Of a stretch of DNA of 64,000 bases, positions 17,608 through 30,890 are shown piece after piece; the stretch's first letter is position 1, and every line of letters begins with the position of its first letter. A program made the position numbers and the translations under genes. The stretch is taken from contig NZ_CP049786.1 of assembly GCF_011290365.1 (NCBI RefSeq), positions 992,001 to 1,056,000 on the forward strand, read 5' to 3'. The notes under the pieces are model-generated. The model made no database searches, was not told the origin of the DNA, and saw nothing but the letters and a program-made list of their open reading frames with translations. This stretch comes from Leclercia sp. 29361. GTDB lineage: Bacteria; Pseudomonadota; Gammaproteobacteria; Enterobacterales; Enterobacteriaceae.

Positions 17608-17912
17608 TTACGCCAGCAGTTCAATCACCCCTTCATCGGTTCTGAGCCAGCGCGGCATCTTAAGCGTATCGGGAAATCCTCTACCGTCAGGCTCGCTTTT
17701 AACGCCTCCGGGATGGGTTCAAGCAGCGTGGGTTGCAGCAGTGCCAGACAGGCCGCAAGCCGTCCGTACAGGGCGATTTTCTCTGCGGGTACATCGCACT
17801 CCAACAGCGCATCCATAAAGCGCTCGCAGTTGTCCGCCAGCTCTGTAAAGGCGGTGCTGTGATTGAAGGGCAGGGTTAATAACGCATGAGTGTGGGTTAG
17901 GGTCGTTGCCAT
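17608..17912 (-). pseudogene. Small hypothetical gene with probable 3' frameshift
   Basis: From ATG 17912, with GGAGGA upstream, a 95-residue frame (MATTLTHTHALLTLPF...) runs to TGA at 17625. Family not recognised. In the alternative frame the sequence after VEDFP reads DTLKMPRWLRTDEGVIELLA and ends at TAA (17610-17608), which looks more natural than the arginine-rich end of the unshifted frame. A missing base in the short C-run (complement of 17671-17673) would explain this. The reading frame also stays open for about 40 codons before the ATG without an obvious earlier start. Confidence 0.5.
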
Positions 17913-18229
17913 AAAGGCATCCTCCGATGAATGATTTAATGAACCACCACCAGAGAGGTCAATCTCATGGGTGGCGGTCTGAGCGGAGTTGACCTTACCG
18001 GCTTCATCGGATACCGGCGCATCTTGCGACGCCCCCGCTCAGCCCACCATTGATGTGTAGCAGAGCGCACGACGCATCATTATACGTCGCCGATGAAGAA
18101 AGCAGGAGGTCAATCCCGACGCCTGATTTTGCAGGCGTGGGAAAACGATACTGTGATAGCCCTGTTGCAATAAGGGGCATTCCCGGAAGCGGCCTCGCAA
18201 AACAAGAAATTAGTGGGTGCGGTCTGGTG
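17913..18229. other. Hairpin-rich intergenic region upstream of the small hypothetical gene
   Basis: Three inverted repeats are visible: AGGTCAA (17956-17962) with TTGACCT (17989-17995); CGACG (18070-18074) with CGTCG (18085-18089); CGCCTG (18120-18125) with CAGGCG (18132-18137). A minus-strand open frame of 87 codons (18267-18004) overlaps it but begins inside a dispersed repeat, so I do not call it a gene. Confidence 0.5.
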
Positions 18230-23911: not shown

Positions 23912-25453
23912 TTAGCGGTGTGTTTGGTGCAAAACTGTGGGCAGGTTAACAATTACGCGCGTGCCGCCCTGCGACTCCAGGGTTAACTCCCCGCCGAGAG
24001 CATGCACGCGCTCGCGCATCCCCTGAATTCCAAAACCGGGCATCTGCTGCGGGCTGATGCCGCTGCCGTTATCCCGCACCTCCAGGCGCAGCTGGTCCTG
24101 GTGCTGGCAGAGCAGGATGCTGACTTCGCTGGCATCGGCATGTTTGCTGACGTTATTCAGCAGCTCCTGTAGCAGACGATAAAGGGTAAAGACCAGGGTT
24201 TCACTCTGGGGCGGGGCCGCCAGCTGGTACTCAAACCGGCACCGGATCCCGCGCTCGGCAAAGGCGAACTCGTTCACCAGATGGTGCAGGGCCTCATTGA
24301 GTGACAGCTCGTCCAGCACCGGGGGGCGCAGCTGACGCAGCAGCTGGCGGGTGGAGTGATGGATGCGCCGCGCCAGCTCGTTGATCTGCCCGGCGGCTTC
24401 CAGCGCCTGCGGGGTATCGCTCGCCCGCTTCACCAGCTGGGACTGGATCTGAATCGCGGTGATGTTCTGGCCAATCTCGTCGTGCAGCTCCCGGGCCAGG
24501 TGCTTGCGGGTATCCTCTTCAGTGTGGATCAGCTTTTCCGCCAGCGCGCGCCGGGCCTGCAACTCCGCCTCCAGCCGACGGCGGTAGTGATCGAGGTTCA
24601 TCGCCAGATGCTGCTGGCGGCTGATGGCGATCCCCAGCCCGATCCCCAGCAGCGACTGGGTGGCGAGGAAAATCTCCAGTTCCAGCAAGTCGCTGAACCC
24701 CACCCCGACCTGGCGGGCAATGGTGATCATCATGCTCCCCAGCAGGCCGGAGAGCACGCCCCCCTGCCAGCCGAACTTCCACGCCATCACCACGTTGGGC
24801 AGAAACACTACGATCAGCAGCAGCCGCTCCAGGGCCGGGGAGAGCACCATCTGGGTGCCGATGCCGATAATAAAAAACAGGCTGCACCAGATGATCAGCG
24901 AGGTACGCAGGGGCGGGTTGCTGGTGTCGAGTCCGAGCAGATGATAGCGGTGCTGCTGGCGTAAAAACTCAAACACCAGGTAGACGAACGGGGTCAGCAG
25001 CACCCCGCCGGTAAAGGAGGCCAGCGCCAGTAGCGTAGTCGGGCTGTCGAGAAAGGGCGCCAGGATCAAAGTCTGGAGCAGGGCATTAAGGCTTACTGCG
25101 GCGATCAGCAGTGACAGGCGCTGCCAGTAGAGCGGAAAGCGGTGCCAGAAATGTTGCGCCAGCCACGCACAGACGGTGCCCACCAGCGGCACCATAAGCA
25201 TCAGGTGATGGGTCAGGAGTTGTTCGCTGTGCAGCCAGAGCATCGCCGCCAGCGGGGGAAGGATCAGCGCTGGCCAGAAGCGGCGCGAGAGCACGATCAG
25301 CAGCGCCAGATAGACGCCCTGGGGCAAAAACAGCGCCGCCTGCTGTCCGTTCTGGGTGAGGTAAAAACTCAGCGTCCAGAGCATCAGCCAGCCGGTGCCC
25401 CAGGCCAGCATAATAAACAGCGAGAGGATGATATGCCGCAGGGAGCGCCGCAT
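23912..25453 (-). CDS. UhpB-like sensor histidine kinase
   Basis: A 513-residue kinase with a MASE1-type multi-helix membrane domain (about residues 8-275), a short coiled linker, a HisKA_3 dimerisation domain with the phospho-acceptor His324 in ARELHDEIGQN, and a C-terminal ATPase domain (ELLNNVSKHADA; VRDNGSGI). This is the UhpB arrangement, in which the membrane part receives the signal from UhpC. The ATG at 25453 overlaps the stop of the response-regulator gene (TGATG), indicating translational coupling. Confidence 0.9.
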   Translation of the reverse strand: MRRSLRHIILSLFIMLAWGTGWLMLWTLSFYLTQNGQQAALFLPQGVYLALLIVLSRRFWPALILPPLAAMLWLHSEQLLTHHLMLMVPLVGTVCAWLAQHFWHRFPLYWQRLSLLIAAVSLNALLQTLILAPFLDSPTTLLALASFTGGVLLTPFVYLVFEFLRQQHRYHLLGLDTSNPPLRTSLIIWCSLFFIIGIGTQMVLSPALERLLLIVVFLPNVVMAWKFGWQGGVLSGLLGSMMITIARQVGVGFSDLLELEIFLATQSLLGIGLGIAISRQQHLAMNLDHYRRRLEAELQARRALAEKLIHTEEDTRKHLARELHDEIGQNITAIQIQSQLVKRASDTPQALEAAGQINELARRIHHSTRQLLRQLRPPVLDELSLNEALHHLVNEFAFAERGIRCRFEYQLAAPPQSETLVFTLYRLLQELLNNVSKHADASEVSILLCQHQDQLRLEVRDNGSGISPQQMPGFGIQGMRERVHALGGELTLESQGGTRVIVNLPTVLHQTHR

Positions 25454-26082
25454 CAGTGGCCGGTCAGCAGCTGGTGATCGAGGGCAAAATGCACCAGCTC
25501 GATGGTGCTGTTGCACTGCAGTTTGCCCAGCACGTTGGCGCGGTGCACGTGAACGGTTTTGTGGCTGAGTTCGAGTTTGAAGGCAATCTCCTTCACGCTG
25601 TCACCCTTGACCAGCAGCTCGAACACCTCTTTCTCGCGCGGGGTCAGGGCGGCCAGCGCCTGGGACACCGGCTCGCCGCCGCGCAGGGCTTTCACCGCAT
25701 CGGCACAGAGATAATGGCCGCCCATCCCGACGGAACGCACGGCCTGCACTAACTCTTCCGGCCCGCAGCGTTTGGTGAGATAGCCGCTGGCCCCGGCGTC
25801 CAGCGCGCTTTGCACAAAGGCGGGAGTGTCGTAGATGCTGAGGATAATGGCGCGAAACCCCGGGCGCTGCTGGCGCAGGCGTTTGAGCAGGCTCAGGCCG
25901 TTCTCATCGGGCATAGCAACGTCGAGCACCGCCACGTCGACGGCATCGCGGGTGAGGGCGGGCCAGGCCTCGGCGGCGCTGCTGTACTGGCCTTCGACCA
26001 CCAGATCGTCTTCCAGATTTAACAGCTGGGCGAACCCGGACCGCACCACCACGTGATCGTCTACCAGCACCACTTTGATCAT
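25453..26082 (-). CDS. UhpA-like response regulator (NarL/LuxR type)
   Basis: A 209-residue regulator: receiver domain (1-120) with phospho-acceptor Asp54 in VAVLDVAMPDE, and a LuxR-type helix-turn-helix (TPREKEVFELLVKGDSVKEIAFKLELSHKTVHVHRANVLGKL). First gene of the same-strand series uhpA-like, uhpB-like, uhpC-like, afuA, afuB, afuC. The expected function is activation of the adjacent afu genes in response to external sugar phosphate; the binding site is not identified. Confidence 0.9.
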   Translation of the reverse strand: MIKVVLVDDHVVVRSGFAQLLNLEDDLVVEGQYSSAAEAWPALTRDAVDVAVLDVAMPDENGLSLLKRLRQQRPGFRAIILSIYDTPAFVQSALDAGASGYLTKRCGPEELVQAVRSVGMGGHYLCADAVKALRGGEPVSQALAALTPREKEVFELLVKGDSVKEIAFKLELSHKTVHVHRANVLGKLQCNSTIELVHFALDHQLLTGH

Positions 26083-26230
26083 CTCAGATACCTTTGCGGA
26101 ATAGTGTCTCTATGATGCCTGTCCGCGTCGGGCTGGCAATTGTGCGGCTGCGGTTATGTAACGGATGTAACAAAATTGCAATAAAGGTTTGAGGGAAGGG
26201 GGAAGGGGGAGAATATGCTGGAACTTGTGG

Positions 26231-26490
26231 TGTGTTCCGTTCACTTTGCGATGAGTGCTTTTCTATAACACCAGAACACGTGAACGTGTCAGGGGGGCTC
26301 GCCGCCGCCCCCCTGACCACCCCGGCTCCCGGCCAGGAAAATCGCCGCTTCGCGGTCCCTTCGGCTAATGACTTGCGGCTGTCGGGTCGGAGGCGATCCT
26401 ACATCCCTGTAGGTCGCCCCCTCTCGGCGCATCCATGCGCCTCGACCCTGCCTCCAGTCAACGCCTCAGCGATTTTCAGCCGGACCATGG
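26231..26490 (+). repeat. Structured 260-bp element, copy A of an inverted pair
   Basis: Copy A aligns with the reverse complement of 26610-26870 along its whole length. It contains a perfect 11-bp stem GTCAGGGGGGC (26288-26298) / GCCCCCCTGAC (26307-26317) and a stem CCTACA-TCCC-TGTAGG (26398-26413). No convincing coding frame. I do not recognise a named element. The spacer between the copies, 26491-26609, shows no gene. Confidence 0.75.
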
Positions 26491-26609
26491 AGCCTCTGTG
26501 AAACTTGCGTCTTAATCGGGTTCTTCATGGCGGTAATTTTTAAAAGGCTGGTATCAAGAACAAGCTACAGCGATAAGATGGCCGCATTTATTTATATTTC
26601 CACAGCGGG

Positions 26610-26870
26610 CCATGTCCGGCCGAAAATCGCCGAAGCGTTTCCCGCAGGCCGGGGCGAGGCGCACGGACGCGCCGAGAGGGCATAGCCTGCAGGGATGCAG
26701 GCTGGTGCCCGACCCGACAGCCGGAGGGAATAAGCTGAGGGCACCGCAACGCGGCGATTTTCTTGCCGGTAGCCCGGGTTGCCAGGGTGGTGGCGATTGA
26801 GCCACCCTGGCACGTTCACGGGTGACGCGGCATACAGAGAAATGCAGAACGTAAAGTGAACGGAACCACC
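26610..26870 (-). repeat. Structured 260-bp element, copy B of an inverted pair
   Basis: In reverse complement it follows copy A from TTCCGTTCACTTT to GGCCGGACATGG. Its hairpins are GCCAGGGTGG (26781-26790) / CCACCCTGGC (26802-26811) and AGCCTGCA-GGGA-TGCAGGCT (26684-26703). The stems differ from copy A but remain fully paired, so the fold seems conserved rather than the sequence. The remaining 26871-27023 is the tauA promoter region. Confidence 0.75.
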
Positions 26871-27023
26871 ACTGAAGCCTGCATATCCCACCCCCAACAA
26901 ATTAACTATCTATTGCCACTTTTTTTCTAAAAACGATTCGGCATTAACGATGCTTTTTAATTCCTTTATCAAAATTCCGCCGCCGGAAATACTGCCCCTA
27001 TAACAACTCGGGGAGCAGACATT

Positions 27024-27986
27024 ATGGCAATTTCATCGCGTTTTACCTTATTTGGCGCACTGGCGCTGTGGGCCGTTCAGGCGCAGGCGGTGGACGTCAC
27101 CATCGCGTATCAAACTTCCGCGGAGCCAGCAAAAGTGGCGCAGGCGGATAACACTTTCGAAAAAGCGAGCGGCGCGAAAGTCGACTGGCGTAAGTTCGAC
27201 AGCGGCGCCAGTATCGTGCGGGCCCTGGCCTCCGGCGATGTGCAGATTGGCAACCTCGGCTCCAGCCCGCTGGCGGTGGCTGCCAGTCAGCAGGTGCCGA
27301 TCGAAGTCTTCCTGTTGGCCTCCCAGCTCGGCAATTCCGAAGCGCTGGTGGTGAAGAAAAACATCACTAAGCCCGAGGATCTGATCGGCAAACGCATTGC
27401 GGTGCCCTTTATCTCCACCACCCACTACAGCCTGCTCGCCGCCCTGAAACACTGGGGGATCAAGCCGGGGCAGGTGGAAATCATTAACCTGCAACCCCCG
27501 GCGATTATCGCCGCCTGGCAGCGGGGCGATATTGACGGGGCCTACGTCTGGTCGCCTGCGGTAAATGAACTGCAGAAAGATGGCAGCGTGCTGACCGACT
27601 CCGCCCAGGTGGGCCAGTGGGGCTCGCCAACCCTCGACGTCTGGGTGGTGCGCAAAGATTTTGCCGAGAAGCACCCAGAAGTGGTGAAAGCCTTCGCCAA
27701 AAGCGCTATCGACGCCCAGCAGCCCTACATTGCCAACCCGGATGAGTGGCTGAAACAGCCTGCCAACCTGGAGAAACTCGCCCGCCTGAGCGGGGTGCCG
27801 CAGGCCGACGTGCCGGGGCTGGTGAAGGGCAATACCTACCTGACGCCCGCCCAGCAGTTGCAACAGCTGGCGGGCCCGGTGAATAAAGCGATTGTTGATA
27901 CTGCTGGCTTCCTGAAAGAGCAGGGCAAAGTGCCCGCGGTGGCGGCGGATTACAGCCAGTACGTGACCGATCGCTTTGTGAAGTAA
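27024..27986 (+). CDS. tauA: TauA, taurine-binding periplasmic protein
   Basis: A 320-residue binding protein with a signal peptide ending at AQA (about residue 22), then [25 protein letters not shown] as in E. coli TauA. It delivers taurine (2-aminoethanesulfonate) to TauBC. The ATG follows GGGGAG. First gene of the tau operon, normally switched on under sulfate limitation by Cbl and CysB; I could not define those sites with confidence. Confidence 0.95.
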
Positions 27987-29588: not shown

Positions 29589-29760
29589 CTGCTCTCCGCC
29601 CTGAAGGGCGAGGATTCCCATTTCACGGAACCGAACCTAAGCCGCGGGGAGCGGCTCAGGATTTACAGGCTCTCCGTGGGCTAACACTGCCAGCCCGGCA
29701 GCTTTGATATTACGGGCCGCATTAATGTCACGATCATGAGTTTCGCCGCACGCCGGGCAA
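29589..29760 (-). ncRNA. Predicted omega-RNA (reRNA) scaffold of the tnpB element
   Basis: In IS200/IS605 elements the RNA guiding TnpB overlaps the tnpB 3' end and the right end of the element. Here the minus strand ends with GGGAATCCTCGCCC, TTCAGGGCGGAGAG and TCAA, strongly resembling known scaffold ends. The guide would then be read from flanking DNA, 29584 down to about 29565, the 3' end of tauC. The 5' boundary given is approximate. Confidence 0.55.
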
Positions 29761-30767
29761 ATCCACTGACGAACATCAAGAGGCATTTTTTGCATGGTGA
29801 AGCCGCAACAATTACAGCGTTTTGAGGACGGGAAAAATTGGTCGATAGTGACAACGCTACGTCCGGCCCAATCGCCTTTGTACTGTAGCTGGCGAACAAA
29901 TTCGTTCCAGCCAGCGTCTGCTATCGCTTTAGACAGCTTCGGATTGCGGATCATGTTTTTCACTTTGAGGGATTCGACGCAAACAACTTGGTTTTCGTTA
30001 ATAAGTTTGCGGGTGGCCTTGTGCAAGGCATCTTGCCGGCAATCGGCTATTTTCGCGTGGAGTCGGGCAACCTTTAAGCGGGCTTTGGCGCGGTTTTTCG
30101 AGCCTCTTGCCTTCCTGCTTAACCGGCGCTGGAGTAGCGCCAGACGTGCCGCGCATTTAGCGGTGTGGCGAGGATTGCCGGATTTAAATCCGGTATCGGT
30201 GATGAACAAATCTTTTAAACCAAGATCAATGCCGACCGTCTTCGGGCTGATCGGCAATGATACAGGCTCAAACTCACAAAGGCAGGAGACGAAATATCGT
30301 CCGGCTGCATCGAGTGTGATGGTGACGGTAGAGGGTGTCGATGGCAACGGACACGACCAGCGTACATTTAATGGTGCTTTGCTCTTTGCCATATATAACT
30401 TGCCCTCGCAGTATTTAAACGCGCTGGCGGTCAATTCTGCTGCTTGTTTATGGCGCTTGCTCTTAAACGTCGGATATTTGGCGCGACCAGCGAAGAAGTT
30501 GGCAAAAGCCGTTTGTTGGTGGCGCAGAGACTGCTGGAGTGGCACGCAGGAAACGTCATTGAGCCAGGCGAATTCCGGCTCTTTTTTCAGAGCCGTTAAC
30601 CGTGCACTCGCCTGAACATAGCCGATCTTTTCCTGATGTTTGTAATAGGCATCGGTGCGCCAACGAAGGATTGAATTGTAGATAAAACGCACACACCCGA
30701 ACGTTTGAGTTAAAAGCTCAACTTGATCGGGGGTTGGATAAAATCTGTATTTGTAGGCGCGTTTCAT
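29637..30767 (-). CDS. tnpB: TnpB RNA-guided endonuclease (OrfB family)
   Basis: A 376-residue TnpB. The split RuvC nuclease residues are all present: Asp181 (VGIDLGLKD), Glu265 (VCVESLKV) and Asp347 (HDRDINAARN). The zinc ribbon has C318/C321 and C337/C340. The N-terminal KRAYKYRFYPT and TFGCVRFIYN blocks are typical. It should therefore be catalytically competent as an RNA-guided DNA nuclease promoting retention of its element. I chose ATG 30767 (MKRAYKYRFYPT) over an in-frame ATG at 30809, which adds 14 residues foreign to the family. Sequence composition is less GC-rich than the tau genes, consistent with acquisition. Confidence 0.93.
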   Translation of the reverse strand: MKRAYKYRFYPTPDQVELLTQTFGCVRFIYNSILRWRTDAYYKHQEKIGYVQASARLTALKKEPEFAWLNDVSCVPLQQSLRHQQTAFANFFAGRAKYPTFKSKRHKQAAELTASAFKYCEGKLYMAKSKAPLNVRWSCPLPSTPSTVTITLDAAGRYFVSCLCEFEPVSLPISPKTVGIDLGLKDLFITDTGFKSGNPRHTAKCAARLALLQRRLSRKARGSKNRAKARLKVARLHAKIADCRQDALHKATRKLINENQVVCVESLKVKNMIRNPKLSKAIADAGWNEFVRQLQYKGDWAGRSVVTIDQFFPSSKRCNCCGFTMQKMPLDVRQWICPACGETHDRDINAARNIKAAGLAVLAHGEPVNPEPLPAA

Positions 30768-30890
30768 GGCCTTACAAAATACGCGAAATAATGTGAGGGA
30801 CATTGACAATGGTCAAACAAAAAAAGTTAGGTTGTTTAGTATCCCCTTTCCTCCCCGCCCGATTGGGCGAGGTCTCCCGGGGGCAATTTG

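Follow-up and report, generated by a model that had tools for sequence, protein, structure and literature searches.

BIME/REP elements and REPINs are palindromic sequences of intergenic regions that often lie between gene ends and can pair in inverted orientation. MITEs and composite transposon ends are non-coding and dispersed, and their inverted copies bound a cargo.

TRIP1 is a repeat of Escherichia coli that was described earlier by Rudd (1999, as cited in PMC10888264) and whose coordinates were given by Li et al. (2024, PMC10888264). According to the retrieved text of the latter paper, TRIP1a–e all lie downstream of a stop codon, 38–96 bp past it, and TRIP1 is called when a blast match covers >80% of its length. 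A term search of that text found no Klebsiella, Enterobacter, covariation or compensatory change. Among the matches listed for the word TRIP1 in open-licence papers, only PMC10888264 treats the TRIP1 repeat, and among those listed in the open-licence literature no paper deals with such repeats flanking units of a C4 antisense RNA and an open reading frame (ORF). In the C4 antisense RNA and isrK modules of phages, as seen in the retrieved records (RF01695, RF01394; IsrK of Gifsy-1, PMC4825925), the RNA lies directly upstream of an ORF.

Two TRIP1-related repeats between a response-regulator gene and tauA

We analyzed a 64-kb stretch of the genome of Leclercia sp. 29361 (the window), in which the region 26231–26870 consists of two inverted repeat copies, A and B (Table 1). 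An earlier sequence-only reading had described the copies as matching in inverse orientation along their length. This was borne out, as copy A matched the reverse complement of copy B with 75% identity over 272 nt (E = 1e-45), and an inverted-repeat search of the window resolved the match into three collinear blocks. The repeat element is ~255 nt long, or perhaps 330–360 nt if one adds, by eye, an outer box and an inner tail. Both additions are common to other copies, so the conserved unit is wider than the pair as originally noted. Of the 175 distinct copies collected, 104 had the outer-box motif (≤3 mismatches) within their outer 45 nt, versus 20 of 1420 window tiles. The spacer had a G+C content of 44.0%, versus 63.4 and 65.0% in the 254-nt cores of A and B.

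Table 1. Features of the repeat pair in the window and of the cargo at the same site in genome G053 (locus L076)
Feature	Coordinates	Strand	Remarks
Inverted block 1	26318-26485/26614-26781		168 nt, 76%
Inverted block 2	26234-26267/26833-26866		74%
Inverted block 3	26276-26300/26799-26823		88%
Copy A core	26234..26487	+	Profile positions 2-254, iterated nhmmer profile; 74% to TRIP1, 178 nt
Copy B core	26613..26866	-	Profile positions 2-253, iterated nhmmer profile; 75% to A, 272 nt
Copy A hairpin 1	26238..26286, stem 26238-26244/26280-26286	+	Helix 1; 3/7 pairs with double-sided changes
Copy A hairpin 2	26288..26317, stem 26288-26297/26308-26317	+	Helix 2; 7/10 pairs with double-sided changes
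Copy A large branched domain	26329..26483	+	Closing stem CCGGC/GCCGG; helices 3-8, MFE fold
Copy A outer box	26198..26233	+	By eye; degenerate form of shared motif
Copy B outer box	26867..26898	-	By eye
Spacer (tails of A and B)	26488..26612	.	Place of C4 RNA and 149-codon gene in G053
Left neighbor, response-regulator gene	25453-26082	-	86% to E. coli O157 protein beside tauA; Pfam Response_reg, GerE
Right neighbor, tauA	27024-27986		88% identity to E. coli O157 TauA
C4 antisense RNA in G053	L076:2288-2375		RF01695, 70.2 bits, above Rfam gathering score
149-codon ORF in G053	L076:2430-2879		Just downstream of C4 RNA

The sequence-only reading had recognized no described family, which did not hold up: TRIP1a and TRIP1c, fetched from E. 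coli by their published coordinates, matched copy A with 74.2% identity over 178 nt (E = 1e-27), and a profile of the repeat also matched both. Besides this homologous core, the A/B repeats share with TRIP1 their intergenic position, their length and their helices, in which pairs are substituted. The cores of A and B fall within the size, composition and fold of TRIP1 (146–273 nt, 62–65% G+C, branched stable fold), with 63–65% G+C. They differ from TRIP1 in the terminal hairpin, which still pairs in TRIP1, in their number per genome and spread over genera (given below), and in the opposed pairs and C4-ORF units, which are absent from the account in the retrieved text of PMC10888264. Default blastn covered 176 of 266 nt of TRIP1a and 176 of 273 nt of TRIP1c (about 66%), and the coverage of TRIP1c was ~79% with permissive scoring and 89% (243 of 273 nt) by profile. 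Because the blast coverage fell short of 80%, we call the whole set TRIP1-related rather than TRIP1. A and B are thus two copies of a TRIP1-related dispersed intergenic element of ~255 nt, with two hairpins and a branched domain.

Copy A matched nine places in its own genome (a number that counts A and B themselves) and had matches in 55 of 60 same-genus genomes (its own counted), with up to 18 matches per genome. Across the family, matches were found in 72 of 295 genomes and 34 of 154 genera (E 1e-3, some matches short), and in a sample of the order in eight of 295 genomes, all of the same family (blastn, E 1e-6). In E. coli, 5,376 of 5,426 genomes had at least one place matching an 801-nt query that includes ~150 nt of flanks (median 6). 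The 661-nt region had no match in phage sequences. The suggestion of a mobile non-coding element is therefore right in the sense of dispersal, since the copies are scattered and a given site may carry the repeat in one species and lack it in another. Comparison with Rfam, which had also been suggested, gave no family, as the repeat scored below the gathering score in all 4227 models and matched none at E up to 1. The suggested comparison with retron msr/msd gave no support for such an element, as the immediate neighbors are the response-regulator gene and tauA, with no reverse transcriptase gene. An IS605 OrfB/TnpB-type gene lies beyond the tau genes, at 29637–30809 (-) of the window (Pfam PF01385, PF07282, PF12323).

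Like BIME/REP elements and REPINs, the A/B family is palindromic, intergenic, often located between gene ends and found in inverted pairs, but its unit exceeds a REP several-fold in length. In 80 of 175 copies, the outer 90 nt contained a GAG-type REP motif, compared with five of 165 stretches located 300–390 nt outward and with 14 of 711 window tiles. Like MITEs and composite transposons, the family is non-coding and dispersed, and in some genomes a cargo is bounded on either side by inverted copies. No target duplication was seen by eye at tauA or alx-sstT, where alleles differ widely around the site. Unlike MITEs, neither A nor B contains an inverted match of at least 14 nt that could represent terminal repeats.

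Fold and compensatory changes

The fold of the A/B repeat family is conserved. Stretches 26234–26500 and 26600–26866 each folded better than all 200 dinucleotide shuffles (z of -5.7 for A and -6.0 for B as RNA, and -5.5 for A as DNA). A and B differed at six of 47 consensus pairs, four of which were compensated (T-A/C-G, G-C/T-A, G-C/C-G and A-T/G-C), and the three compensated pairs named in the sequence-only reading were all correct and belong to these four. The remaining two differences are a mismatch in A (A.C versus G-C) and a wobble in B (A-T versus G.T).

We aligned 43 divergent copies using MAFFT without structure (alignment A1). Its rows were 45 copies chosen at <86% identity, minus four that were interrupted, incomplete or slightly short (L121, L074, L117 and the first L052 copy), plus A and B. 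RNAalifold found 42 pairs in A1, of which 27 had double-sided changes. With one further hairpin the structure comprised 47 pairs, and 94.9% of 2,002 cells were paired and 5.1% unpaired. Double-sided changes were found at 31 of the 47 pairs and in 226 cells. The shuffle means were 17.1 pairs and 61.0 cells and none of 500 shuffles reached the observed covariation, a comparison in which kinship among the rows can beat shuffles even without structure. Slid-structure controls gave 17–43 double-sided cells, and here the consensus structure is favored because it was derived from A1 itself. Covariation was strong in hairpin 2 of copy A, and helix 7 was the weakest, being paired in only 75.3% of cells. 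TRIP1c (row L015) fits the same helices, and its hairpin 1 stem has another sequence with the pairing kept. Some unpaired consensus columns, e.g. 102, 103 and 106, were also invariant. Mispairs in the 43 copies were 27 G.T and 24 A.C, and those in the 175 copies, whose rows are related, were 126 G.T and 75 A.C; we claim no strand bias in either direction.

A search of Enterobacteriaceae for further copies and covariation had been proposed, and it yielded both, in the 72 genomes and at the 31 pairs given above. Stem changes left uncompensated in these copies had been named as evidence against the idea, and most changes proved to be compensated. The claim of selection on a folded molecule stands in part: the covariation in A1 indicates a fold that is maintained by selection or another process. 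To our knowledge, this is the first fold of the repeat that is supported by covariation.

Among the 175 distinct copies, 27 groups had both flanks in common and were considered orthologous. When every group was represented by its most divergent pair, the total was 63 double-sided paired changes, 16 wobble, 34 single broken and seven double broken (1,256 cells), which looks like maintenance in place. In the orthologues L174 and L187, an entire hairpin arm was swapped between two forms found in other copies. This points to a contribution of copy-to-copy recombination, and the counts of in-place changes are therefore not independent events.

The two copies can also pair with each other. The predicted MFE fold of one strand spanning A and B had -390.8 kcal/mol, versus -111.9 and -123.9 kcal/mol for the cores alone, and contained 203 A-B pairs and 40 pairs elsewhere, with no base pair internal to either copy. 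The very large cruciform or duplex anticipated from the sequence is thus predicted to be favored over the local folds, and a single A-B hairpin is supported thermodynamically. We rejected a coding function of the repeat, as stop-free runs of 60 codons were similarly frequent in the three forward frames (106, 116 and 113 of 175 copies) and were not in register; they were rarer in the reverse frames (47, 43 and 37 of 175 copies).

Arrangement of the copies and the C4 RNA-ORF units

Opposed neighboring copies are placed tail to tail. Adjacent copies ≤1,200 nt apart at distinct places comprised 40 +/- pairs, in which the outer hairpins face outward, 13 ++, three -- and no -/+ pairs; a site that recurs in related genomes enters these counts more than once. 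Ten of the 13 ++ neighbors involved a fragment. When both copies had ≥200 profile positions, the counts were 31 +/-, three ++, three -- and no -/+. The spacers of the 40 opposed pairs measured 47–97 nt in 26 cases, which leaves no room for a 149-codon gene, 119–288 nt in nine and 703–1,045 nt in five. Tight cargo-free pairs were thus the commonest opposed form, both in this genus (e.g. L004, L005, L028) and in others.

Grouped by flanking genes, 80 clusters of copies included 47 between convergent, 25 between tandem and eight between divergent genes; these are raw counts from a simple ORF rule applied on both sides. By makeup, 54 clusters were single copies, 21 were opposed pairs and five were other. 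Single copies in tandem-gene settings pointed in the same direction as the genes in nine cases and in the opposite direction in nine. Duplicate loci were removed from the 80 clusters by a hand list, with one place (L024/L125) counted twice, and from the 175-copy and neighbor-pair sets by sequence.

The same site as in the window carries, in genome G053, copy A, a C4 antisense RNA, a 149-codon ORF and copy B in this order, and its copies are 93% (A) and 91% (B) identical to those of the window. In G045, copy A and a broken B enclose a gene remnant at this site, and G045 spacers matched the 149-codon ORF both here (E 1e-5) and at another pair (E 1e-7). The window spacer matched the tail of A in G053 (69%, 51 nt, E 0.002); it had no recognizable ORF remnant, and the cargo is absent. 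Elsewhere in the window, at 17617–18054 (-), a C4 antisense RNA (Rfam, 70.4 bits) and a truncated copy of the 149-codon gene sit without repeats between a homocysteine S-methyltransferase gene and an ABC-transporter gene.

The ORF had no Pfam match at cut-off (best E 0.19) and no NCBIfam or PHROGs match, and a PADLOC match at E 0.047 did not name it. Its family was matched in 57 of 61 same-genus genomes, many weakly, and in 71 of 295 family genomes. The ORF family is under purifying selection, with a median dN/dS of 0.13 (138 pairs from 67 distinct ORFs). At loci L105–L166 it forms a multi-copy orphan gene family, with isrK in some of the loci scanned for C4 RNA. A search by close-relative patterns matched one genome contig, from Mangrovibacter, and a single-sequence structure model of this relative had five helices and a mean pLDDT of 58.5, too weak for a fold search. 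A phage origin of the ORF was considered and set aside, as there was one match to a 1.5-kb unannotated phage record and none in IMG/VR by close-relative patterns.

C4 RNA accompanied the ORF in 17 of the 20 loci scanned first (missing in L019, L078 and L125) and in 19 of 20 of a second set (missing in L144), i.e. 36 of 40 combined, and in six of nine loci of a third, later-chosen set (missing in L262, L024 and L022); some of the scanned loci are the same place. The RNA lies directly upstream of the ORF as in the phage C4/isrK modules of the retrieved records, from which the present units differ in lying between chromosomal genes in the examined loci and in having an ORF that Pfam, NCBIfam and PHROGs leave unnamed. 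Within the genus, 14 of the 30 top-ranking ORF loci had a repeat ≤600 nt away, as did three of 29 ORF loci in other genera. Among 71 distinct ORFs, 22 had a repeat within this distance and 49 had none; loci retrieved because of their repeats are overrepresented in this set. The cargo and the repeat are thus separable, and their association is strong where it exists: the nearest upstream repeat pointed with the ORF in 17 of 19 cases, the other two being upstream tight pairs, and the nearest downstream repeat was opposed to it in eight of nine, the exception being a tandem array. In G051 (L184, L179), repeats and C4-ORF units were repeated in tandem ~1.55 kb apart, and an inner 407-nt unit was also tandem (98% match). 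A group II intron match (RF02005, 186.6 bits) adjoined a repeat and ORF copy at one place in G038 (L125:1009-1234/L024:363-588, -).

Origin of the pair and its meaning

The states of the tauA site ranged from the full unit (G053) through a partly deleted one (G045) to the bare pair of the window. Fragments were present in G051 and G035, an end scar was seen by eye in G036, and G038, the nearest genome by flank identity, and G055 had another REP element. The site was empty in G015, G043, G018 and E. coli O157 strain Z1486, and its left neighbor differed in several other genomes. The yhgN end of the yhgN-gntU site was matched in all 61 genomes, and 30 yhgN-gntU loci were examined. Twelve had short or REP-type sequence only, including the window's own genome (87 nt), three had repeat and ORF (L234, L240, L262), three had the ORF only, and one each had an ORF fragment, a repeat fragment and another insert (L253). 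Two had traces by eye (L241, and L251, where the repeat start is fused to the ORF end), and in the remaining seven gntU could not be located and no element was visible. Further loci had repeat-ORF-repeat (G020, G051) or a pair with an ORF remnant (G045). The states of the two sites indicate that internal deletion forms recur. Several kinds of palindromic element accumulate in the yhgN-gntU intergenic region (L234–L263 and others) and vary between species. Between alx and sstT in E. coli, the three alleles (L168, L169, L170) carried either two REP-type elements, a single one, or TRIP1d flanked by unrelated sequence, and they differed over most of the intergenic stretch. No target-site duplication was seen by eye at tauA, yhgN-gntU or alx-sstT; alleles differ widely around these sites, so the insertion ends could not be defined.

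We read A and B as TRIP1-related ends of a mobile composite unit that has lost its cargo here, and we judge the chances of this reading as a whole to be evenly balanced. That the pair at tauA is the leftover of a repeat, C4 antisense RNA, small protein gene and inverted repeat is supported by the full unit in G053 and the gene remnant in G045 at the same site. We infer that these folded copies terminate a non-autonomous mobile cassette from their number and spread, the covariation over 47 pairs, the excess of +/- over -/+ neighbors, the orientation of repeats to the ORF, the low dN/dS of the latter and the bare-to-full states at yhgN-gntU. The middle of such a unit would have been lost at the window site, leaving A and B facing each other. 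The hairpins, exposed on single-stranded DNA or extruded, may be recognized by a putative enzyme supplied in trans, and selection for this recognition, aided by recombination between copies, would keep the stems paired. Mobile ends are opposed by the fact that no target-site duplication or clean insertion boundary was seen at tauA or alx-sstT, and the cargo by the 49 of 71 ORFs and 26 of 29 other-genus ORF loci without a repeat within 600 nt. The 54 single-copy clusters and the 26 opposed pairs with 47–97-nt spacers speak against cargo loss; such single copies and tight pairs could be either deletion forms or an older form. As the window spacer has no ORF remnant, the cargo may possibly have been gained in G053 instead.

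A host-serving element is a rather unlikely alternative. Repeats of this BIME/REP-like kind would be selected in place at gene ends, as two-way barriers or stabilizers at the 3' ends of convergent transcripts, and pairs would be neighbors or duplications. The 47 of 80 clusters between convergent genes, the position of TRIP1a–e past stop codons in the retrieved text of PMC10888264 and the mostly compensated stem changes in the 27 orthologous groups agree with it. However, presence varies among the yhgN-gntU loci examined, the terminator-like signal was not above chance, the arm swap in L174/L187 points to recombination between copies, and chance neighbors would not yield 40 +/- versus 0 -/+.

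Quasi-palindrome correction during replication can make stems match. Together with gene conversion, it could have produced the paired changes from mutation and recombination alone, with no selection on the fold. The same arm swap and the similar numbers of G.T and A.C mispairs in the 43 copies, as for a process acting on two-strand DNA, fit this explanation, which we nonetheless regard as improbable, given that some unpaired columns are invariant too and that G.T exceeded A.C in the 175 related copies. The small-RNA locus suggested by the sequence-only reading, or a source of double-stranded RNA, could account for the stable folds of A and B, the predicted preference for an A-B duplex over local folds and the mild G.T excess on the + strand of the 175-copy set. 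It appears very unlikely, as Rfam gave no match, the promoter-like and terminator-like sites were not above shuffles and lie outside copies A and B, and single copies in tandem settings had no orientation preference (nine versus nine).

These results link a little-studied E. coli repeat to structured elements across Enterobacteriaceae and to small C4-RNA gene units, so that the purpose of the repeats and the way they spread can be tested at known sites whose alleles are full, partly deleted or empty. A further proposal, which we consider rather doubtful, is that they represent a new class of mobile cassette in Enterobacteriaceae, with long TRIP1-like inverted ends whose folded DNA is read in trans by an enzyme of the host or a phage, and with a cargo of phage-type C4 RNA and a small protein. 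If so, the cargo would perhaps be an immunity or addiction module, and TRIP1 and the solitary repeats would be relics of the cassette.
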